Position numbers and translations under genes: made by a program. From a virus: 64,000 nt of DNA. Positions 1-41,911 of this stretch are shown piece by piece (position 1 is the first letter of the stretch; each line of letters opens with the position of its first letter). The notes below the pieces were generated by a model that had not been told where the DNA came from, ran no database searches, and saw only the letters and a list, made by a program, of their open reading frames with translations. The DNA lies in the IMG/VR virus record IMGVR_UViG_3300017991_005548, positions 1 through 64,000 of that record; one strand, written 5' to 3'.

Positions 1-3000
1 ATAATTTTCAGAAGAGCTACTGGATTCGCTTTTTGAGCTTGAAGATTCTGACTGAGATGAAGAACTTTCAGAATAATTTTCAGAAGAACTACTGGATTCG
101 CTTTGCGAACTTTCTGATTGAGACGACTCACTCTGAGATGATTCTGATTGAGAACTACTTGACTCAGAATAATTTTCTGATGAACTCGAACTTCTTGAGC
201 TTTCGCTTTGCGAACTATCTGATTGTGATGAGCTTGACTCAGATTGAGATGAAGAACTCTCAGACTGAGAACTTATACTCTCTGTAAAAAGCGCACACTC
301 TTCATATACATAATTAATGTTCTCAGTTGAACTACTAGACGATTCTGATTGACTACTACTTGACTCCGATTGAGAACTACTCGACTCCGATTGAGAACTA
401 CTTGATTCTGATTGAGATGAAGAACTCTCAGAATAGTTTTCTGAAGAACTTGACGATTCAGATTGGCTACTGCTTGATTCACTCTGAGATGAAGACGATT
501 CAGATTGAGACGATTCACTCTGAGATGAGGATGATTCAGATTTGGAACTACTTGATTCTGATTGAGATGATTCACTCTGAGATGACTCTGATTTACTGCT
601 ACTTGATTCACTTTCAGATTGAGAACTCTCGGACAAAGATGAACTTGACTCGCTTTGAGAACTTTCACTCTGAGAGCTACTGGACTCGCTTTGAGATGAG
701 CTTGATTCAGACTGAGAACTTTCAGATTGAGAACTAGAGCTTTCTGATTGGCTACTGGAACTTTCAGATTGAGATGAACTCGATTCAGATTGAGATGATT
801 CACTTTGGCTACTTTCGCTTTGTGAACTGCTTGATTCTGATTGACTACTTGAACTCTCTGATTGAGATGACTCACTCTGAGAACTAATACTCTCGGTAAA
901 TAAATCACAAAGTGCGTACTCAAAATTAACATTCTCAGTTGAACTACTTGAACTTTCACTTTTTGAACTAGAGCTTTCGGAGACTGAGCTTTCGGAGACT
1001 GAGCTTTCAGAATAATTCTCAGAACTTGTACTTGACGATTCTGAATAATTTTCACTTGAAGTCGATGAACTTTCAGAACTCGCAGAATAAACTTCGCTTG
1101 AAGTCGATGAACTTGAATCCTTGGAAGAACTTGAACTTGAATCCTTGGAAGAACTTGAAGAACTTACAGGACAAACTCCAGGTTCTAGTGTTGGAGCAGG
1201 AGGAGTCCCAGAAATTACAAACCATTCCAATGAACTCGGTGACACCCATGGTTCTGTTGAGGCCGTATTATATGCAGAAGTACCTCCTAGAACATCAGAC
1301 ATTACCCATTTACTTGAATCTGAGAAATATAAGAACCTAGATCCGTTGTAATAATATGTTGTATCATTATGTACTCCAGCTATCTGGTAATTTCCATTAA
1401 ATGATATGTCTCCAGCAAGCTCAACACAAATAGTTCCTGGCAGATTCCCACTAGAAATTGAAGAACTTGAAGAAAACTGCTCTGAACTACTTGAACTTCC
1501 TGATGACTCAGAACTATTTGAATATTGTTCTGATGAACTACTTGATTCAGATTTGGAACTAGACGATTCTGATTGAGATGAGGAACTTTCTGACTGGGAT
1601 GATTCTGACTGTGAAGACTCGCTCTGAGAACTGCTGGATTCACTTTGGCTACTAGAACTTTCACTCTGGGAACTGCTAGATTCTGATTGGCTACTGTCAG
1701 ACTGGGAGCTTTCGCTTTGAGAACTTTCAGATTGCGAACTAGAAGATTCACTGTCACTCTGGGACGAATCGCTCTTTGAACTACTAGATTCGCTTTGAGA
1801 TGATTCGCTTTGAGATGATTCGCTTTGAGATGATTCAGATTGGGAACTCTCACTTTGACTAGATGATGATTCAGATTTACTACTGCTTGATTCAGACTGG
1901 GAACTTTCTGACTGACTGCTACTCGATTCACTCTGAGAGGAGGAACTTTCTGACTGAGAACTCTCGGATTGAGACGACTGAGAAGATTCTGATTGAGAGC
2001 TTGAGCTTTCTGACTGGGAGCTATCACTTTGGCTACTGCTACTCTCTGACTGAGAAGATTCAGATTGTGAACTACTTGATTCAGATTGTGAACTACTTGA
2101 TTCAGATTGTGAACTGCTACTCTCTGACTGAGATGATGAGCTTTCTGATTGAGAACTTTCAGATTTACTACTGCTCGATTCACTTTGGGAAGACTCAGAT
2201 TTGGATGATTCAGATTGGGATGATGAACTCTCTGATTTTGAACTACTGGATTCGGATTGAGACGATTCACTCTTACTACTACTGGACTCGCTTTGAGAGC
2301 TTTCGGATTGAGACGAAGAACTTTCAGACTGCGATGATGAACTCTCGGATTGAGATGACTCAGATTGGGAACTCTCAGATTGTGAGCTAGAAGACTCGCT
2401 ATCACTCTGGGACGACTCAGATTGGGAACTGCTAGACTCAGACTTACTACTCTCAGATTGAGACGATTCTGACTGTGAACTTTCACTTTGAGAACTACTT
2501 GATTCACTTTGAGAGGATGAACTCTCGGACTGACTACTCTCACTCTTTGAACTACTTGACTCTGATTGGGACGACTCACTCTTTGAACTACTTGACTCTG
2601 ATTGGGACGACTCACTCTGAGACGATTCCGACTGTGAACTTTCACTTTGAGAACTGCTTGATTCTGATTGAGAACTTTCGGACTGACTACTTTCACTCTT
2701 TGAACTACTTGATTCACTCTGAGATGATTCACTCTGAGATGATTCACTCTGAGATGATTCACTCTGAGAGCTACTTGATTCCGATTGAGAACTCTCACTT
2801 TGAGAACTTTCAGAATGCGCCAAACTTGAAGTTGATGAACTTGAATCCTTGGAAGAACTTGAACTTGAATCCTTGGAAGAACTCGAAGAGCTTACAGGAC
2901 AAATTCCGTTCTCTGTTACTGGGGCTGGAGGAGTTCCATTATCAACAAACCAAGACAAATACCCAGGACCAATCCAAGGGGGAACTAAGTTTGTACTATA

Positions 3001-3798
3001 CGCAGATACCCCTCCAAGAGTCGTTGACAATGTCCATCTACTAAGATTCGAATAAAATAGAAATCTTGATCCACTGGAATAATAAACTGTCTCATTGTAA
3101 ATGCCAACAGCACTGTAAGTAGCATTATAAGAAGTATCTCCAGCATGTTCCACACAAACATCATCTATCAAACCGCCACTAGAAATTGAAGAACTTGAAG
3201 AAAACTGCTCTGAACTACTTGATTCAGATTGAGATGAGGAGCTTTCACTATATAGTTGAGATGAGGAGCTACTTTCACTTGACTCACTTGAGATACTTCT
3301 GGAACTATCGGAATAATTCTCTGATGAACTTGACTCGCTTGAGATACTACTTGAACTCTCAGATGATCCAGAGCTAACACTATATTGTTCTGAACTACTT
3401 GAGCTACTTTCACTAGAGCTACTATCACATAAAGTTGGGAGACGAACAATAGTTATTGAAGGCCAAACGCCTGTTGTAGTTTGAGCATCAATAAATGTTT
3501 GAACCTGTGGTATTGTTGGGTCAGGAGTTATGATATCTGTGAACACCCAAGCATATTCACAACGAACATCATTAATTGATCTGTCAACATTGCCATCAAA
3601 ATCAGCATCAGGTATCTCAGGAAGTCTAGCAACAGTTATCGATGGCCAAACGCCTGTTGCTGTTTGAGCATCAACAAAATCTTGAACCTGAGCTATACTT
3701 GGGTTAGGAGTAAATTGATCTACAAAAACCCAAGCATAATAAATACGAACATCATTTATAGTGATGTCTTTGTCATTGTCGAAATCTGCACAACCCAT
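1..3798 (-). CDS. Giant serine-rich surface protein with dockerin-like N-terminus (partial, runs off left edge)
   Basis: Partial protein of at least 1266 residues; the frame from ATG at 3798 is open to base 1, so the C-terminus is missing. Residues 1-125 hold two repeats with EF-hand/dockerin-like spacing (D-rich loop, then INDVR, then an aromatic helix), the same pair that opens the next gene upstream. Long Ser/Gln/Glu/Lys linkers follow (patterns such as SSQSES). They are interrupted by two paralogous globular modules, at about 3178-2895 and 1455-1160, that share CVE, GSRFL and GTPPAP motifs, and by two short Cys-containing blocks near 945-885 and 330-280. No signal peptide is visible. A virion or tail surface protein is inferred from low complexity and modularity; the exact function is unknown. 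Ribosome site: AAGGAAAATAAA before ATG. Confidence 0.8.
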   Translation of the reverse strand, partial: MGCADFDNDKDITINDVRIYYAWVFVDQFTPNPSIAQVQDFVDAQTATGVWPSITVARLPEIPDADFDGNVDRSINDVRCEYAWVFTDIITPDPTIPQVQTFIDAQTTTGVWPSITIVRLPTLCDSSSSESSSSSSEQYSVSSGSSESSSSISSESSSSENYSDSSRSISSESSESSSSSQLYSESSSSQSESSSSEQFSSSSSISSGGLIDDVCVEHAGDTSYNATYSAVGIYNETVYYSSGSRFLFYSNLSRWTLSTTLGGVSAYSTNLVPPWIGPGYLSWFVDNGTPPAPVTENGICPVSSSSSSKDSSSSSSKDSSSSTSSLAHSESSQSESSQSESSSSQSESSQSESSQSESSQSESSSSKSESSQSESSQSESSSSQSESSQSESSQSESSQSESSSSKSESSQSESSSSKSESSQSESSSSQSESSSSQSESSQSESSQSESSKSESSSSQSESSQSDSESSSSQSESSQSESSQSESSSSQSESSSSQSESSQSESSSSKSESSQSESSSSKSESSSSQSESSKSESSQSESSSSKSESSQSESSSSQSESSSSQSESSSSQSESSSSQSESSQSESSSSQSDSSQSESSSSQSESSQSSQSESSQSESSSSQSESSSSQSESSQSESSSSKSESSSSQSESSQSESSQSESSQSESSQSESSSSKSDSSQSDSESSSSQSESSQSESSQSDSSQSESSSSQSESSSSQSESSSSQSESSQSESSQSESSSSQSESSSSKSESSSSSEQYSNSSESSGSSSSSEQFSSSSSISSGNLPGTICVELAGDISFNGNYQIAGVHNDTTYYYNGSRFLYFSDSSKWVMSDVLGGTSAYNTASTEPWVSPSSLEWFVISGTPPAPTLEPGVCPVSSSSSSKDSSSSSSKDSSSSTSSEVYSASSESSSTSSENYSESSSTSSENYSESSVSESSVSESSSSKSESSSSSTENVNFEYALCDLFTESISSQSESSQSESSSSQSESSSSQSESSQSESSQSESSSSQSESSSSQSESSSSQSESSQSESSSSQSESSSSQSESSQSESSSSLSESSQSESESSSSKSESSQSESSQSESSSSKSESSSSQSESSQSESSSSQSESSSSQSESSSSSENYSESSSSQSESSSSQSESSSSQSESSSSQSESSSSSTENINYVYEECALFTESISSQSESSSSQSESSSSQSDSSQSESSRSSSSSENYSESSSSQSESSQSESSQSESSQSESSSSSENYSESSSSQSESSSSKSESSSSSENY

Positions 3799-3809
3799 TT
3801 TATTTTCCT

Positions 3810-6800
3810 TTAACTACTCGAACTTGATGAAAACAAGTTCGAACTTGATGACGACACATTATTGAATGACTCTGAGCTAGAACTCTTAACCATCGCGTTT
3901 GTGCAATCAAACTCAATATCTTCAAAACTTTCAATCTGGAAGAAATTAATAATCGTATAAGTATGATATCCTGGGACCGTCCCTCCCAAATAAGAACCTG
4001 TAAAATTCGTTGGACCACCTTGATTAACAAGTGTCATTCTTGCTGTGATACTAGGATTCTCTACAGGGTCTATCCTATTAATTGGTATATGCACTGCCGC
4101 TACCGTCTTGACAGGACTTATATCATAATTATAATTGTATGTGAAACTATCTCCCCCATTAAATGACACGCTATCAGAAGCTATCTCCTCAGTTTCAGAT
4201 CCTGGCTCCAAATAAGTAAGAAGAACGGATAGTTGTTTCAAACATTGTGCGTCAAGTGAACTCGATGAACTATCATCAGAATATCCCTCGGACGAACTCT
4301 CTGAATAACTCGATGAACTCTCTGAATATTGCTCAGATGAAGAACTAGAGCTACTTGAATCACTTGAATTGCTCTGAGACGATTCAGATTGAGAACTCTC
4401 TGATTGTGATGACTCAGATTGAGAACTGCTGGACTCACTTTGGGAACTTTCAGATTGAGAACTATCACTCTGAGAACTGCTGGATTCAGATTGAGAACTC
4501 TCAGATTGAGAACTGGAAGACTCAGACTTAGAGGAAGAAGACTCACTCTCGGAACTTGAACTTTCTGAATATTGTTCAGAACTTGAACTTGACTCAGAAC
4601 TAACGGAACTAACAGAATATCCTCCAGATGACGATGAACTAGATGAGTCAATACTTGAGCTACTTGAGCTACTTGAACTACTGCTGTAATTAGCATTCGC
4701 ACATTCTTCACAATTGTTATAAATACTGTCAATGTTATGAGTAATTGGCTTGTCTACCAAACCAACTCTTTGGTAACAGACTCCATTTACGCTGATAAAT
4801 TCTGCTTCGGTATATGGAACAACTATATTTCCGTTCCATTCATCGATATCGAGTGCCGTAACAACGTCTTCTATTGGACATCCAAGACCATACAATCCAC
4901 TAGATGGTCCTGCAAAATTCAATCCTACAATCTTTAATTCTCCACCGACTTCAATCAATACAGTAGAACCTGAATCTCCTCCCTGCCCCATTCTTGTATC
5001 AGCACTATATAATATTTGGTCAGTAAAATATGCCTGTAAATTGGTTCCAGACCCATCTCCATAATTGACTGTTGCCGCAGTAAACTTCTGGGTCAATGTT
5101 GCAAAAGGAGGTGGAGTAATTCCTGTTGTTCTGCCACTCTTGTAAACTTGGTCCCCAATATTGTATTCAGATTTATTGGAAAATGCGAAAGGACCATGTC
5201 CAACTTCAAGGATATTAGTAGCCGCATCGTCAACATCAACTGAGAAAATCGCACAGTCTACTGAATTACTAGCAACTCCGCTTCCTCCGAACTTCATAGC
5301 TACGGCTCTTTTCACCTGACCCGCTCTATCAGTAGGAGAGACACCTCCATCATTTGGAGATGGCTGTAACATCCACAAACCAGTTGTATCGGTACTACCC
5401 TCTTCTCCAAGGAAGGCTTCCTCATAAACATGAGGGTCACTGTGGTTACTTGATATGTTCGAAAAGCTAAACTCTCCTCCACTGTAAATGACTGTAACAC
5501 TATGAGTATGAGGATTCGTAGTATCTGGATCGCCACCTGACAACAACGATCCTCCAGATGAAACAACAACACTAGAAGATATCCCATCTATCAAATTCCC
5601 AGCCTGTTGCCCAGTTATTGTAACTAAATGATAATGGCTATATCCCCAAGATTCCCCTGTACTGAAATCAAGGAAAAAATAAGTTGTTGAATAAGGAGTT
5701 CTATAATCAGGATCATATTTCAGGCCAGCACAGTGATTATTAGTAAGTGCGACCAATGAATCGTCTGTAGTATCTTTTACAATAGCTCCAAGAGTACATG
5801 CTGTTCCACTTTCCTCTATGGCACTAATTCCTCCTTGAAGTGGTCTGTACTTTTCATCATGAGGAGGACATCCGCCACCAGCACCATCTTTACAACTTCC
5901 ATGAGCGAACAGTTTCTCAACTACAATAATATCTGTTTTGGTGTTAGTTGACAAACGCTCTGGAATAAGATCATTTTCGTCTAGCTCAGAAATATCAACT
6001 TTTCTCTCTACACCGACAACTACGCATGGTTCTCCAGTATCTACACCATCAACAATCTTAGTTCCTGCCATGGCCATAACAACATTAGCTTTTGGCGCTA
6101 TTTCAGCAACATACAATTCATTGGCATCTCTTTCTTCCTGACTATCATATTCAGGAGATCTTGGGACGGCTCTTGCCGTAGCTTGACTGAAACTCCTTGG
6201 ATTAGAGCACATTGTAAATTCAATATTACCATAGCTTGAAGAACTTGAAGAACTTGAAGAGTCTATCGATGAACTAGAACTGGAAGATTCTGAACTTTCA
6301 GATTGTGAACTTTCGGAATAACCTTCAGAAGAAGAACTAGAAGATTCTGAACTCAAACTCTGAGATGATTCAGAATATTGTTCAGAAGAAGAACTAGACT
6401 TACTTGAATCAGATTGTGAACTGTCAGAATAATTTTCGGAACTTGAGCTAGATTCGCTTGAAACGCTTTGTGAACTGTTAGATTGTGAACTGTCAGAGTA
6501 GCCTTGGCTAGACTTACTTGAATCAGACAATGAACTGTCAGATTGTGAACTGTCAGAATACTCTTCAGACGAACTTGACGAACTTGGAGAACTATCCGAA
6601 CTGACAGAACTTACAGAGTACTCTTCAGAAGAAGAACTTGAACTACTGTGACTAGAACTACTTTCACACAGAGTTGGAAGACGAACAATAGTTATTGAAG
6701 GCCAAACACCTGTTGCTGTCTGAGCATCAATAAACGCCTGAACTTGCGGTATTGTTGGATCAGGAAATGTAAGGTCTGTGAACACCCATGCAAAATAACA

Positions 6801-11051: not shown

Positions 11052-11128
11052 TGGTGGGCTGGGTGGGACTTGAACCCACGACCAACGGAGTAAGAATCCG
11101 CGACTCTATCCAACTGAGTTACCAACCC
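11052..11128 (-). tRNA. tRNA-Lys(CTT)
   Basis: 77 nt with encoded CCA. Acceptor GGGTTGG/CCAGCCC, A73, T arm GTGGG-TTCAAGT-CCCAC. Anticodon loop TTCTTAC gives CTT, reading AAG. Its D arm resembles that of the adjacent tRNA-Lys(TTT), so the two are probably duplicates. Leader 1 of this operon contains two AAG codons. Confidence 0.92.
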
Positions 11129-11133
11129 ATTTT

Positions 11134-11208
11134 TGGTGGACCTGGAGAATTTTGAAATCTCGACCAACGGATTAAAAGTCCGCGACTCTGCCTCTGAGTT
11201 ACAGGTCC
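11134..11208 (-). tRNA. tRNA-Lys(TTT)
   Basis: 75 nt with encoded CCA. Acceptor GGACCTG/CAGGTCC, A73. Anticodon stem CGGA/TCCG with loop CTTTTAA gives TTT, reading AAA. The T arm is AGATT-TCAAAAT-TCTCC with weaker pairing than usual. Leader 1 of this operon contains three AAA codons. Confidence 0.88.
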
Positions 11209-11263
11209 AAAGTGAGAGAGCATATCTACTTCGAAGACTTAACAATATGCTTTTAAACTCTCT

Positions 11264-11339
11264 TGGAGCCGCCTGACGGAATTGAACCGACATCCTCTGA
11301 GTACAAAACAGAGATAATAATCCTTTATACTAAGGCGGC
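11264..11339 (-). tRNA. tRNA-Thr(TGT)
   Basis: 76 nt with encoded CCA and discriminator T73. Acceptor GCCGCCT/AGGCGGC is perfect; T arm GTCGG-TTCAATT-CCGTC. The best anticodon arm is TCTGT/TCAGA (one T-T mismatch next to the loop) with loop TTTGTAC, giving TGT, reading ACA. T73 is shared by all three Thr tRNAs of this array, which supports the assignment. Confidence 0.75.
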
Positions 11340-11345
11340 GTCATA

Positions 11346-11417
11346 AGCCCTTGCCCAGCAACGATCTGGGACTAATCCCTTACGAGGGGATAGTTCTGCC
11401 AATTAAACTACAAGGGC
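11346..11417 (-). tRNA. tRNA-Thr(CGT)
   Basis: 72 nt, CCA not encoded, T73. Acceptor GCCCTTG/CAAGGGC. Anticodon arm ATCCC-CTCGTAA-GGGAT is perfect and gives CGT, reading ACG. The T loop ATCGTTG is atypical (TTCGAAT is usual), so function could be reduced. Confidence 0.83.
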
Positions 11418-11445
11418 ATCTTACTTAAATTTTCAAAGATCATTC

Positions 11446-11520
11446 TGGAGCATCCAATCGGACTCGAACCGATAACCCCCTCCTTACCATGGAGGAATTC
11501 TACCATTGAACTATGGATGC
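11446..11520 (-). tRNA. tRNA-Thr(GGT), first tRNA of array 1
   Basis: 75 nt with encoded CCA and T73. Acceptor GCATCCA/TGGATGC, T arm ATCGG-TTCGAGT-CCGAT. Anticodon arm CCTCC-ATGGTAA-GGAGG gives GGT, reading ACC and ACT. It starts 8 nt after the attenuator terminator, so termination there would silence the whole array. Confidence 0.9.
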
Positions 11521-11527
11521 ATAGGCA

Positions 11528-11562
11528 CAAAAAAACCCGAAGTCTTTATCGGACTTCGGGTT
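11528..11562 (-). terminator. Attenuator terminator of tRNA array 1
   Basis: Minus strand AACCCGAAGTC and GACTTCGGGTT form an 11-bp stem closed by a CGATAAA-type loop, followed by a run of T. It sits between the leader ORF (stop at 11585) and the first tRNA (11520), both on one transcript from the promoter at 11735-11762. A terminator placed before the genes it serves implies conditional read-through. Confidence 0.93.
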
Positions 11563-11608
11563 GGTCAGTATCTTTACGTTCAGGTCAAGACAACAAACCT
11601 CCCGAAGC
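11528..11608 (-). promoter_or_regulatory. Antiterminator/attenuator region of leader 1
   Basis: Leader codons 19-21 contain GGCTTCGGG (about 11609-11601), nearly the same as the terminator 3' arm (GACTTCGGG). It can pair with the terminator 5' arm CCCGAAGTC (9 bp with one G-T). The two structures exclude each other. A ribosome stalled in the upstream Thr/Lys run would leave GGCTTCGGG free to form the antiterminator; a ribosome reaching the stop codon would cover it and let the terminator form. A further upstream arm (CCACG/CGTGG, and CGAAG/CTTCG) can sequester the same segment, as in classical attenuators. Pairing is read from sequence; the mechanism is inferred. Confidence 0.75.
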
Positions 11609-11662
11609 CACGCGTTTCTTCGTGGTTTTGGTTGTTTTAGTTGTCTTGGTTGTAGCGTACAT
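11585..11662 (-). CDS. Thr/Lys-rich leader peptide of tRNA array 1
   Basis: 25 aa ORF too short for usual gene calling. After Met-Tyr-Ala come four Thr-Thr-Lys repeats, then Lys-Arg-Val-Ala-Ser-Gly-Gly-Leu-Leu-Ser. Thirteen of 25 residues are Thr or Lys. All four Thr codons occur (ACA x3, ACC x3, ACT, ACG) and both Lys codons (AAA x3, AAG x2), exactly those read by the five tRNAs downstream. Ribosome site AAGGA lies 10 nt before ATG. The stop is 23 nt before the terminator. It most likely acts by being translated and not as a product, like thrL or trpL. Confidence 0.8.
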   Translation of the reverse strand: MYATTKTTKTTKTTKKRVASGGLLS

Positions 11663-11734: not shown

Positions 11735-11762
11735 ATTATAAGCTATGTTTGGAGCTTTTCAA
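11735..11762 (-). promoter_or_regulatory. Sigma70-like promoter of tRNA array 1
   Basis: TTGAAA, 16-nt spacer, TATAAT, then AGGGGTAAC on the minus strand. The same box layout and the AGGGG start region recur at 27048-27075 before tRNA array 2. The start site would be near 11728, about 65 nt upstream of the leader ATG. A small hairpin CTTCA/TGAAG precedes the ribosome site. Confidence 0.85.
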
Positions 11763-25591: not shown

Positions 25592-25673
25592 TGGTATGGG
25601 GGGTGGGACTTGAACCCACAGAAATTCACTTGTTTATAAGACAAGCCGCTTAACCAAATTTGCGTACCCCCAC
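25592..25673 (-). tRNA. tRNA-Ile(TAT), last tRNA of array 2
   Basis: 82 nt with encoded CCA. Acceptor GTGGGGG/CCCCCAT, A73, T arm GTGGG-TTCAAGT-CCCAC. Anticodon arm CTTGT-CTTATAA-ACAAG gives TAT, reading the rare ATA codon. Leader 2 uses ATA for both of its Ile residues. The variable loop is rather long (9 nt). Confidence 0.85.
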
Positions 25674-25798: not shown

Positions 25799-25875
25799 TG
25801 GTGGGCAGTACAGGACTCGAACCTGTCACGACCTCGGTGTAAACGAGGCATTCTAGCCAAATGAATTAACTGCCC
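25799..25875 (-). tRNA. tRNA-Val(TAC)
   Basis: 77 nt with encoded CCA. Acceptor GGGCAGT/ACTGCCC, A73, T arm ACAGG-TTCGAGT-CCTGT. Anticodon arm CCTCG-TTTACAC-CGAGG gives TAC, reading GTA. Leader 2 contains four GTA codons. Confidence 0.92.
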
Positions 25876-26026: not shown

Positions 26027-26103
26027 TGGTGGACCTACACGGATTCGAACCGAGATTTCCTCCCTGCCAGAGAGGTGTGTTAGCCATTAGTCACTATAAG
26101 CCC
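26027..26103 (-). tRNA. tRNA-Ala(GGC)
   Basis: 77 nt with encoded CCA. Acceptor GGGCTTA/TAGGTCC (two G-T pairs), A73, T arm with TTCGAAT. Anticodon arm CCTCT-CTGGCAG-GGAGG gives GGC, reading GCC/GCT. Leader 2 has two GCC codons in its Ala/Val run. Confidence 0.83.
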
Positions 26104-26508: not shown

Positions 26509-26585
26509 TGGTGGAGCATAAGAGACTCGAACTCTTGACATCCTGCTTGCAAAGCAGGTGCTCTAGCCATCTGAGCTAATGCCCC
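26509..26585 (-). tRNA. tRNA-Ala(TGC)
   Basis: 77 nt with encoded CCA. Acceptor GGGGCAT/ATGCTCC, A73; normal D arm; anticodon arm CCTGC-TTTGCAA-GCAGG gives TGC, reading GCA/GCG. Leader 2 carries GCA twice and GCG once in its Ala/Val run. Confidence 0.94.
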
Positions 26586-26776: not shown

Positions 26777-26853
26777 TGGTAGTTGGGACAGGACTCGAAC
26801 CTGCATCCTCCGATATGTAAAAACGGTGCTCCGCGCAATTAAGCTACCCAACC
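26777..26853 (-). tRNA. tRNA-Val(TAC), first tRNA of array 2
   Basis: 77 nt with encoded CCA. Acceptor GGTTGGG/CCCAACT, A73, T arm GCAGG-TTCGAGT-CCTGT. The anticodon stem CCGTT/ATCGG has one T-T mismatch; loop TTTACAT gives TAC (GTA). It begins 27 nt after the attenuator terminator. Confidence 0.83.
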
Positions 26854-26879: not shown

Positions 26880-26910
26880 AAAAAAAGCCCTGTCATTTCT
26901 GACAGGGCTT
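26880..26910 (-). terminator. Attenuator terminator of tRNA array 2
   Basis: Minus strand AAGCCCTGTCA and TGACAGGGCTT form an 11-bp stem with a GAAA-like tetraloop, followed by seven T. It lies between the leader ORF stop (26933) and the first tRNA (26853). Confidence 0.95.
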
Positions 26911-26959
26911 AAACCGACTTCTGGAAACTACATCATCCAGAAAGAGCAGAAAAGCCCTG
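26880..26959 (-). promoter_or_regulatory. Antiterminator/attenuator region of leader 2
   Basis: Leader codons 20-23 contain GGCAGGGCTT, one base different from the terminator 3' arm GACAGGGCTT, and can pair with the 5' arm AAGCCCTGTC (10 bp with one G-T). This is the same position in the leader, the same one-base G/A difference and the same distance to the terminator as in leader 1. Upstream, CCGTC/GACGG and GCAGA/TCTGC can form competing hairpins. The read of mutually exclusive folds is direct; regulation is inferred. Confidence 0.77.
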
Positions 26960-27019
26960 CCCGTCTGCGACTACCGCGACGGCTACTACTGCTATGGCTA
27001 TTTCTACTCTCTTTTTCAT
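26933..27019 (-). CDS. Ile/Ala/Val-rich leader peptide of tRNA array 2
   Basis: 28 aa. It starts Met-Lys-Lys-Arg-Val-Glu, then twelve residues in a row are only Ile, Ala or Val, then DGQGFSALSG. Codons in that run are ATA x2, GCC x2, GCA x2, GCG, GTA x3, GTC x2, read mainly by the tRNA-Ile(TAT), Ala(GGC, TGC) and Val(TAC) genes downstream. GGAG lies 9 nt before ATG. It resembles ilv-type leader peptides in composition, but no biosynthetic gene follows. A small membrane peptide is the alternative reading. Confidence 0.8.
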   Translation of the reverse strand: MKKRVEIAIAVVAVAVVADGQGFSALSG

Positions 27020-27047
27020 AAAACATATCTCCAGTTACGTTGCCCCT

Positions 27048-27075
27048 ATTATAAGGCATCTATTTGGCTTTTCAA
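27048..27075 (-). promoter_or_regulatory. Sigma70-like promoter of tRNA array 2
   Basis: TTGAAA, 16-nt spacer, TATAAT, then AGGGGCAAC. Near-identical in boxes, spacing and start region to the promoter of array 1. It lies just after the stop of the P-loop-like gene at 27101. Confidence 0.87.
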
Positions 27076-39670: not shown

Positions 39671-40612
39671 CTACTGGAGATACCCTAGTTCTTCCAAAAG
39701 TGCCATGGCCCTTTCATTCTTTGTGAATTCATCAATTCTATCTTGATGTTCTGACTTCTTCCATTTGCCAACTCTATTGGATGAGATCTTCTTTGCTTCC
39801 CCTGCCCAGGCATAATTAGTTTTTACATTAGTAGAATCCTGATAATCAACCAATTCTTTCTCATATGGGATACCTATATGAGAACATACCCTCTGCAATG
39901 TCTCTTCTGGCTTTATTACAAGATCTTCATATTTGACTATCATAGAGATATCTTTAAATTCAAGACCCTTTGTAACATCATTAACCCATCGATCTATATC
40001 TACCCAATATTGCCCAGGATGATATGGATGAACCGATGTAGTAACATCTCTTCCATCTCTTATCAAATGTATAAGCTTTACATCGCCCTTGAATATTTTA
40101 TGAATTTCATCAAAAACTAAGATATTTTTAGGTGTCTTTTCACACCAGATCTTCCCATCCATGTCATGTCCGTCAAGCTCTCTTATGATTCTAATAAGTC
40201 TTGTTGGATTTGGATAAAAGGCAAAAAGTTCTTCATCAATGGCATGAATCTTCTCATGAGCACCAAGTATACTAAGCAAAAGAGTAGTCCCTGATCTACC
40301 ACACCCTCCAACAATAACTGGAGAACCATATTTCTTGAGAGCCTCTACCTCTCGATACATCCAAGTGTTTATTGTACCAGATGAAACCATCTCTTTGAAC
40401 AACTTGACAAACAACTCTGGATTATTCTCAGCAGGCTTTTCGTAAGAAACTCTCCATGAATCTCCCCAAAGCCATTTCCCTCCACTCTCAAAATGAACGA
40501 ACTGCGAAGAAGCCCCTTCCTCTATCTTATATATTGACTCACCAGGATGAGTATAATATTTATACGGTTCTATTGTAAGTACTTTGTCTATAGAAGCTTT
40601 GGTTATTTTCAT
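39671..40612 (-). CDS. Sulfotransferase family protein 2
   Basis: 313 aa. VIVGGCGRSGTTLLLSIL is the PAPS-binding P-loop (GRSGTT), KTPKN follows, and LIHLIRDGRDVTTSV gives the 3'-phosphate site. This is the Sulfotransfer_3 class. The first 80 residues are an extra domain of unknown function. Overlaps the NeuB gene by 4 nt, so the two reactions may belong to one glycan. Confidence 0.8.
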   Translation of the reverse strand: MKITKASIDKVLTIEPYKYYTHPGESIYKIEEGASSQFVHFESGGKWLWGDSWRVSYEKPAENNPELFVKLFKEMVSSGTINTWMYREVEALKKYGSPVIVGGCGRSGTTLLLSILGAHEKIHAIDEELFAFYPNPTRLIRIIRELDGHDMDGKIWCEKTPKNILVFDEIHKIFKGDVKLIHLIRDGRDVTTSVHPYHPGQYWVDIDRWVNDVTKGLEFKDISMIVKYEDLVIKPEETLQRVCSHIGIPYEKELVDYQDSTNVKTNYAWAGEAKKISSNRVGKWKKSEHQDRIDEFTKNERAMALLEELGYLQ

Positions 40613-41310
40613 TGCATCCTCACGAAACTGTCACAGAAGCCCCTTAATCTTCTAAGATCTTCACAATCCATAGATCCCAGATGCCCCTTCTCATAATTTG
40701 CTTGCAACGATTTATCAAGAGTAAAGTGTTTTTCTACAACCTTAGCTCCGCGAACAACAGAAGCAATTGCCGCAGTTAATCCAAAAGTATGATCACTAAA
40801 ACCCATGTATCTTGAGTTTTTAAAATCGCAATTTGGAATATCTTCTAAACGTGCTGGATAATCTGAGATACATAAAAAATAATGGACGTTATCTCCATCA
40901 TATCGAAAATCATTCTGGTTAAAACCGTTAGATACATAGACTGGCTTGTTAGTTGCCATCACTTTATGACATAATGCCATGTCTTCAAAAGTTCGACTTG
41001 CTATCTTGTAACTGGAGAAGCTCAACTGTTCGCACCAATAGAATCTTTCCTCATCAAAAACGGAACAAAGAACCCCAAGGTCAATTGAATCGGCATATCT
41101 CTTGATTCTACTTAGCTCTGGTAATGTAATTTCAGCATACTTCTTTCTGTCATCACCAAATAGTCTTTGTGATGAATATAGTTGGAATTTCACCATATCT
41201 GCTCCAAATGTCTTGCATTGAAGCATCATACTAAATATCGCATCAATCGATCCGCCATGTTGAGGATGCAGTTCTGCTATGATCTCAATTCTTTCGTTTT
41301 TTGGTTCCAT
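40609..41310 (-). CDS. NeuB-family nonulosonic acid synthase (short)
   Basis: 233 aa. EIIAELHPQHGG, then GADMVKFQLYS, then MGFSDHTFGLTAAI and KVVEKHFTLD: the NeuB TIM-barrel motifs (metal-binding His and the PEP/ManNAc site). Typical NeuB is about 340 aa with a C-terminal antifreeze-like SAF domain, which is absent here, so it could be a minimal form. Converts an N-acyl-hexosamine plus PEP into a sialic, legionaminic or pseudaminic acid; which one cannot be told. Overlaps NeuA by 26 nt. Confidence 0.78.
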   Translation of the reverse strand: MEPKNERIEIIAELHPQHGGSIDAIFSMMLQCKTFGADMVKFQLYSSQRLFGDDRKKYAEITLPELSRIKRYADSIDLGVLCSVFDEERFYWCEQLSFSSYKIASRTFEDMALCHKVMATNKPVYVSNGFNQNDFRYDGDNVHYFLCISDYPARLEDIPNCDFKNSRYMGFSDHTFGLTAAIASVVRGAKVVEKHFTLDKSLQANYEKGHLGSMDCEDLRRLRGFCDSFVRMQ

Positions 41311-41911
41311 TGAGTCTTTCCTCCACTTCTTTTACATTGTCAATATCATGCACATCTATATAATTTGTAACATAGACACCACTTCTCGTACTAAGAGACT
41401 TTTGATAAACATACTCCCTTCTCATTATTCTAAAAGCGGCATTCATTATAAGATCCTCATTAACACTAAATATCTCACTTCGGTCGAACTTTATAAATTT
41501 CTCAAGTGCTCGATCTAAATCATCACTATTGATCTCTGGAGAATTCGCCTGTACTGAAATTACGATGTCTGGAATACCAACTGTATCATAATTAGGGCTA
41601 ACTATTGTACCTGCCTCTGGATTAACAAGAACATCCGTTGCATGTATAATTGCGTCCTGTTTAAATACATGATCTTCTGCCAACTCTTCTGGTCTAACAA
41701 TAACTCCAGCCCTATGGCCCAAGGCTATGCCCCAAATTTCCTTATCTTCAGTTGAAACATAAACCCTATCAATATATTCAGACTTTTGGCAGGCATTTAT
41801 TGCCCAAGCCAACATCGGAACACCACAAACTGGGTAAATGTTCTTTCTAGGCAATCTTTTAGACCCACCTCTTGCAGGTATTACGGCAACAACTTTTTTC
41901 CCATCAATCAT
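41285..41911 (-). CDS. NeuA-family CMP-nonulosonic acid cytidylyltransferase
   Basis: 208 aa. VVAVIPARGGSKRLPRKN is the CTP-binding P-loop of NeuA/KdsB-type enzymes, followed by YVSTEDKEI and VSVQANSPEI. Activates the NeuB product as the CMP-sugar. Overlapping genes in the order NeuA, NeuB, sulfotransferase suggest one pathway. Confidence 0.85.
   Translation of the reverse strand: MIDGKKVVAVIPARGGSKRLPRKNIYPVCGVPMLAWAINACQKSEYIDRVYVSTEDKEIWGIALGHRAGVIVRPEELAEDHVFKQDAIIHATDVLVNPEAGTIVSPNYDTVGIPDIVISVQANSPEINSDDLDRALEKFIKFDRSEIFSVNEDLIMNAAFRIMRREYVYQKSLSTRSGVYVTNYIDVHDIDNVKEVEERLNGTKKRKN

Follow-up and report, generated by a model that had tools for sequence, protein, structure and literature searches.

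Predicted ribosome-mediated attenuators with leader codons matched to the phage tRNA arrays that follow them

The closest described relatives of the elements reported here are the attenuators that enterobacteria place ahead of amino-acid operons. E. coli thrL, trpL and pheM share with the phage units a promoter, a short leader carrying the relevant codons, a choice between antiterminator and terminator, and the profile obtained when the RNA is folded for successive ribosome positions; the Phe leader of our virus (MNNLNNIFRFFSHL) resembles pheM in particular. Enterobacterial attenuators, however, control biosynthetic enzymes or a synthetase, whereas the phage units would control tRNA arrays, with one leader sensing up to seven amino acids and seven units running in parallel in a single virus. 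T-box riboswitches also sense tRNA charging and act on transcription termination. They contact tRNA themselves, with no need for translation, and their targets are synthetase or transport genes; a comparison with Rfam gave no T-box in the phage leaders. The role of the tRNA genes carried by phages has been disputed for decades, with codon compensation on one side and the replacement of destroyed host tRNAs on the other. Phage tRNAs stand in for host tRNAs that anticodon nucleases or retron effectors have destroyed (PMC10264068, PMC11555353). The replacement would be the same here, but supply would be regulated by the shortage itself, and the main texts of those two papers mention neither attenuation nor leader peptides. 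Terms for such control are likewise absent from papers on huge phages (PMC7162821), jumbo phages (PMC7824862) and Atu_ph07 (PMC6102473), and a full-text search, outside whose reach most subscription journals lie, returned no report of attenuator or leader-peptide control of phage tRNA genes, an absence that is no proof. While attenuation as a class of mechanism is known, the tRNA-array target, the leaders for multiple amino acids and the parallel units of a phage are undescribed in the literature searched.

The window, that is, the whole stretch of 64,000 nucleotides that was analysed, makes up the first 64,000 bases of a virus record 296,327 bases long; the same virus is also represented by the 476,248-base IMG/VR contig IMGVR_UViG_3300018080_008436. 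Two units lie within it. For the one preceding Ile, Val and Ala tRNA genes, an earlier note had described a promoter, a 28-residue leader with a run of 12 Ile, Ala and Val residues, an 11-bp terminator with seven T, and an array in the order Val(tac), Ala(tgc), Ala(ggc), Val(tac), Ile(tat). All of these elements are found on the minus strand where that note had placed them, ARAGORN returns the same tRNA order, and the leader does contain a mimic of the terminator 3' arm (GGGCAGGGCTTT, at 26962-26951). The features of this unit are:

27048..27075, minus strand: promoter of the sigma70 type, TTGAAA-N16-TATAAT
27029..27032, minus strand: Shine-Dalgarno motif GGAG, 9 nt before the ATG
26933..27019, minus strand: leader ORF of 28 codons, MKKRVEIAIAVVAVAVVADGQGFSALSG and stop
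26966..27001, minus strand: regulatory run IAIAVVAVAVVA, 12 codons for Ile, Ala and Val
26951..26962, minus strand: antiterminator segment GGGCAGGGCTTT, which mimics the terminator 3' arm and pairs with the 5' arm
26880..26910, minus strand: intrinsic terminator with an 11-bp stem, AAGCCCTGTCA-GAAA-TGACAGGGCTT at 26910-26885, and T tract
26777..26853, minus strand: tRNA-Val(tac) (ARAGORN)
26509..26585, minus strand: tRNA-Ala(tgc) (ARAGORN)
26027..26103, minus strand: tRNA-Ala(ggc) (ARAGORN)
25799..25875, minus strand: tRNA-Val(tac) (ARAGORN)
25592..25673, minus strand: tRNA-Ile(tat) (ARAGORN)

The run reads ATA GCC ATA GCA GTA GTA GCC GTC GCG GTA GTC GCA, with ATA as its Ile codon both times, and the seven T of the terminator, counted up to 26880, include two within the stem. 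The second unit of the window, to which that note refers as another array with a leader of matching codons, precedes Thr and Lys tRNAs and is confirmed as well:

11735..11762, minus strand: promoter
11585..11662, minus strand: leader ORF, MYATTKTTKTTKTTKKRVASGGLLS and stop
11653-11615, minus strand: Thr/Lys run TTKTTKTTKTTKK
11597..11610, minus strand: antiterminator segment TGGCTTCGGGAGGT
11529..11562, minus strand: intrinsic terminator AACCCGAAGTC..GACTTCGGGTTTTTTT
11052..11520, minus strand: tRNA array Thr(ggt) Thr(cgt) Thr(tgt) Lys(ttt) Lys(ctt) (ARAGORN)

After searching for all tRNA genes of the virus and reading the array starts, we found that seven of its eight multi-gene tRNA arrays are preceded by a matched leader and terminator. 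In addition to the Thr/Lys and Ile/Val/Ala pairs, five more lie outside the window:

Phe leader, MNNLNNIFRFFSHL, upstream of tRNA Phe, Phe
Glu/Pro leader, MNNYMYIREPEREEPPAFGRRSADL, upstream of Glu and Pro tRNAs
Arg/Trp/Ile/Val/Asp/Met/His leader, MNVVRDMHIIRRDWSHRASDLRYRMF, upstream of tRNAs for these seven amino acids
Ser/Leu/Cys/Tyr leader, MKSLSLSLCSSYLSLRWTGLCVQRT, upstream of Cys, Tyr, Leu and Ser tRNAs
Gln/Asn leader, MSVQVQQNNQNNQALEGFGRLFSA, upstream of Gln and Asn tRNAs

Each of these five carries a TTGAAA..TATAAT promoter, a ribosome-binding site of the AGGA, AAGGA or GGAG type, a leader of 14-28 codons and a terminator. Throughout the units of the virus an intrinsic terminator stands between the leader and the first tRNA gene, with a T tract ending 53-68 nt past the start of the leader stop codon. 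An ORF with a Shine-Dalgarno-like site, putatively translated, is present in all seven leaders. A search for the 37-nt form of the promoter, allowing up to 2 mismatches, gave three sites in the virus record, all of them at tRNA leaders, and none in the reversed control. Of the multi-tRNA arrays seen, Met..Gly alone has no leader, and the single tRNAs of the virus lack one as well.

Several features of these tRNA loci may be recorded alongside. Behind each of the Phe and Glu/Pro attenuators (stretches L035 and L036), and ahead of the first tRNA, lies a further intrinsic terminator in tandem with the first. The Met..Gly array (stretch L044, minus strand, 1900-3900), where a leader attenuator is absent, contains many degenerate or oddly inserted tRNA-like sequences, and a single tRNA with the amber anticodon CTA (G000:197398-197469, minus strand; L039) has its own TTGACA/TATAAT promoter without a leader. 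Furthermore, an element of about 36 nt recurs inside or beside tRNA genes, consisting of a 6-bp hairpin GAACYT..AAGGTTC followed by YTWCAGCAA (L036, minus strand, around 1586, 2081 and 2296; L038, minus strand, 3867; L046, plus strand, 4458). At L036 859-986 it forms part of an insert of about 57 nt that interrupts the anticodon loop of what is otherwise a good tRNA; these elements are possibly small tRNA introns or mobile inserts.

How specific is the match between leader and array? Each of the seven leaders was scored against each of the seven arrays, and the resulting matrix is dominated by its diagonal: among the 5,040 permutations of the assignment, the observed sum is reached by the true one alone. 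At the level of amino acids, the match is overwhelming. The Ile/Val/Ala leader on its own has a match score of 4e-9, equalled by the amino-acid sets of 3 of the 335 other arrays. At the level of codons, i.e. of isoacceptors, the match is moderate, 69 of the 71 matched regulatory codons being strictly readable by the anticodons of their own array where the codon usage of the virus predicts 65.0 (P=0.012); the other two are GTC, both in the Ile/Val/Ala leader. Both Ile codons of this leader are indeed ATA, and the proposal that they are specific to tRNA-Ile(TAT) has the moderate support just given. Elsewhere in the virus, ATT ATT precedes tRNA-Ile(GAU) as ATA ATA precedes tRNA-Ile(UAU) here, and in the sixth leader (Ser/Leu/Cys/Tyr) the codons for Leu and Ser cover every anticodon that its array has for these two amino acids.

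The RNA downstream of the ribosome was folded for each position of the A site, with an assumed E. coli-like footprint reaching 11 nt downstream of the A site and with E. coli thrL, trpL and pheM as positive controls. In all seven leaders, as long as the A site lies on the run, the 5' arm of the terminator is sequestered ahead of 3' arm synthesis with a probability of 0.7-0.99; this probability drops where the run ends or no more than a few codons from that point, a shape also given by the three controls. For the Ile/Val/Ala leader it drops only to 0.3-0.6, because weak alternative pairings persist. The antiterminator pairing is exclusive with the terminator and is located just 3' of the regulatory codons. 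As a readout, the equilibrium probability of the terminator proved mostly uninformative: the terminator wins at every ribosome position in four of the seven leaders, and the E. coli controls are not clearly discriminated either. Therefore, the switch must be kinetic, with the antiterminator made ahead of the terminator 3' arm.

In six of the seven leaders, the ORF forms a stronger duplex with the terminator 5' arm than dinucleotide shuffles do (p 0.0025-0.005), and combining leaders by Fisher's method gives p 7e-10 for the seven and 2e-21 for all 19 phage leaders. For Ile/Val/Ala, the duplex reaches -18.5 kcal/mol against -10.5 +/- 2.2 for the shuffles (p 0.0025); together with the match score and the five further matched leaders of the virus, this bears out the earlier assertion that chance is very unlikely. 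The Phe leader is not significant in the duplex test, because its pairing segment sits past the stop codon, as in trpL and pheM, while the ribosome-position fold does show its pairing.

Comparable arrangements exist in other giant phages that are unrelated to this virus. We scanned 336 array starts in 25 phage records blindly for an ORF of 9-45 codons and a terminator hairpin upstream of the array. This is a convenience sample that gives no estimate of prevalence, and since several of the metagenomic phages look related to one another, it counts sites rather than independent origins. At a threshold of p<1e-5, 23 of the 46 ORF-plus-terminator sites match their own array, where 2,000 permutations gave 1.4 such matches on average and never more than 6, which backs the idea of an attenuator matched to its downstream tRNAs. 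Matched leaders occur in the metagenomic phages LR745206 (634 kb), LR756504 (636 kb), LR756502 (642 kb) and LR756501 (735 kb), and examples from the survey are:

metagenomic phage, MILSLCLSLSLSLQKLGVV, before Leu/Ser/Cys tRNAs
metagenomic phage, MTTSFQQQQQQQINRTD, before four Gln tRNAs
metagenomic phage, MKTVNTNIAIVEIAVIGGAEEG, before Glu/Ala/Ile/Val/Gly tRNAs
Agrobacterium phage Atu_ph07, ..EIIAIERNVFVRAEAAMFWYPI.., before Ala/Arg/Phe/Pro/Ile/Tyr/Trp/Met/Glu tRNAs
Caulobacter phage CcrSC, ..RQFVRQIQFVRVNR.., before Val/Ile/Val/Gln/Asn/Arg/Phe tRNAs

In the ribosome-position fold, 12 leaders of the huge phages of the first round give the same kind of switch. A credible case is absent in 17 of the 25 records, with phage G as one further, tentative record: the leader of this Bacillus phage (Cys/Asp/Phe/Tyr/Glu/Thr/Ser) matches in composition, its antiterminator pairing is weak (-7.4 kcal/mol), and we call it an attenuator only tentatively. 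Most of the mid-size phages surveyed, and some of the large ones (XacN1 in part, LR745208, LR756508, CBB, Phosso), have no matched leader. The apparent matches of L134 Leu and L146 Lys, both in other phages, were rejected as sequence without leader plus terminator, and the weakly scoring XbC2 Ser was left out of the count.

Relatives of the window's virus that carry tRNA arrays were sought with promoter patterns, PhoH, a RecD-like helicase, the terminase and two array-flanking proteins, and the 476-kb record of the virus itself was the sole such sequence to emerge. The relatives picked up through the terminase (50-76% identity) are on short contigs without tRNAs, and promoter-pattern matches in a Bacillota MAG and two other viral contigs lack tRNAs as well. 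Covariation was therefore examined in the Caulobacter/Brevundimonas family alone, where the CcrSC leader is conserved across ten jumbo phages. Their runs include YRQFVRQIQFVRVNR, YRQFVRQIQSVRVNR (CcrBL9, with one Ser), YRNNVRQIRVRQFN, YRNNVQQIQVVRFNR, YRQFVQIQVVRNFR and YRQFVRQIQVVRNIR. Past the Tyr, residues are reordered, lost and gained, and save for the one Ser of CcrBL9 every residue is Arg, Gln, Val, Ile, Asn or Phe. These are the amino acids of the arrays, although the annotated tRNAs differ by phage, with Phe, Asn or Arg unlisted in some. Across the ten phages, changes in the 12-nt antiterminator segment go along with changes in both arms of the terminator: CcrSC has CGGACGGGCC in the leader, GGCCCGTCCG as 5' arm and CGGACGGGCC as 3' arm, where eight relatives have GGCGGGCC against GGCCCGCC. 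Leader and 5' arm pair at 12 of 12 positions in eight of the ten, and at 11 and 10 positions in the remaining two. The change in the antiterminator also swaps Thr for Ala in the peptide, and since this swap follows the RNA pairing, what seems to be selected is the pairing together with the codon classes rather than the peptide. The earlier note had named two findings that would speak against it, a conserved functional peptide and arms not conserved as alternative pairings. Neither was seen in this family, the only one compared, where residues are reordered, inserted and deleted around a nearly constant amino-acid set and the alternative pairings are kept through compensatory changes.

Could the leader ORF instead encode a small peptide with a function of its own, such as a membrane or signal-like one, with the tRNA match arising by chance or from codon adaptation? 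MKKRVEIAIAVVAVAVVA does resemble a short hydrophobic segment. However, the other leaders of the virus differ from it wholly, are mostly polar (KT, EP, QN, RWIVDMH) and each fit their own array, and in the Caulobacter family order and length change while the amino-acid set hardly does, with the Thr/Ala swap tracking the RNA pairing; we thus give this reading very little credence. That the terminators end upstream transcripts or insulate the arrays, with the intervening ORFs incidental, would fit the frequent separation of phage transcription units by terminators, as well as the tandem terminators after the Phe and Glu/Pro leaders. Yet each terminator lies between a dedicated promoter plus leader and the tRNAs, has a 5' arm complementary to the leader, and would leave the amino-acid match unexplained, which makes this second reading improbable, if a little less so than a functional peptide.

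The two remaining alternatives concern what is sensed. A leader RNA binding uncharged tRNA directly, in the manner of a T-box, would respond to an identical signal, but the long codon runs would then have no explanation. Moreover, at the gathering threshold Rfam returned the tRNA family only for the window and the other leader loci, with no amino-acid operon leader or T-box, and at a relaxed threshold it gave nothing relevant, T-boxes included, for the Phe and Ile/Val/Ala leaders. We put practically no weight on such direct binding. Sensing of general amino-acid starvation rather than of tRNA shortage deserves more consideration, as the stall would be mechanistically identical and charging is the signal for classical attenuators. 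Against it, the output is tRNA genes and not synthesis or uptake, so that extra uncharged tRNA would bring no relief, and the isoacceptors are partially matched (ATA with tRNA-Ile(UAU), ATT with tRNA-Ile(GAU)); neither point is decisive, and we regard starvation sensing as a possible but unlikely reading.

Drawn from the anatomy, the codon-array match, the alternative pairings with their switch close to where the run ends, and covariation within a single phage family, the preferred reading is that each unit is very probably a ribosome-mediated transcription attenuator with phage tRNAs as the regulated genes. RNA polymerase would start at the unit promoter while a ribosome translates the leader. 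With cognate charged tRNAs plentiful, the ribosome would clear the run and cover or pass the antiterminator segment, allowing the terminator to form and transcription to stop before the tRNA genes. With any of them short, it would stall in the run, the downstream segment would pair with the terminator 5' arm, and polymerase would enter the array that encodes the scarce tRNAs, whose products would relieve the stall and close a self-correcting loop. Translation, stalling, read-through and biological purpose are what we infer from sequence. The purpose is likely a self-correcting, on-demand supply of tRNA, e.g. when host tRNAs have decayed or been cut by anticodon nucleases, and we hypothesize that the natural trigger is tRNA loss to host anticodon nucleases, consistent with PMC10264068 and PMC11555353.

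Apart from the tRNA units, the window holds a phage release factor gene of the RF1 type (20864-20147, minus strand), with RF-1 and PCRF domains and the PxT motif in VQRCPPTESKGRR. Its frame is broken at CUU UAG C (20744-20727) and resumes in +1, which looks like the autoregulatory frameshift of RF2 (prfB), but at UAG in an RF1; no Shine-Dalgarno-like stimulator was seen upstream of the break. TAG is the stop of only 5 of the 56 long ORFs of the window, yet of two of the seven leaders. At 39671-41911 on the minus strand, genes with NeuB, cytidylyltransferase and sulfotransferase domains lie among glycosyltransferase-like genes, possibly a surface-sugar pathway of the phage.

What do these leaders mean for the biology of phages that carry tRNA genes? 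A sensor built into the array tells what the phage responds to, namely a shortage of cognate charged tRNAs, and so the question of the role of phage tRNAs becomes directly testable with reporters and cultured phages. The leaders could also serve as natural, codon-specific stall reporters, and textbook attenuation would be extended to tRNA genes and to viruses. On balance, we lean somewhat towards the view that several unrelated lineages of giant phages independently run a tRNA homeostat, in which each group of tRNA genes would be silenced by a leader peptide reading the codons that its tRNAs serve; the phage would in this way sense which tRNAs the host, or its anticodon-nuclease defences, had taken away during infection, and would replace just those.
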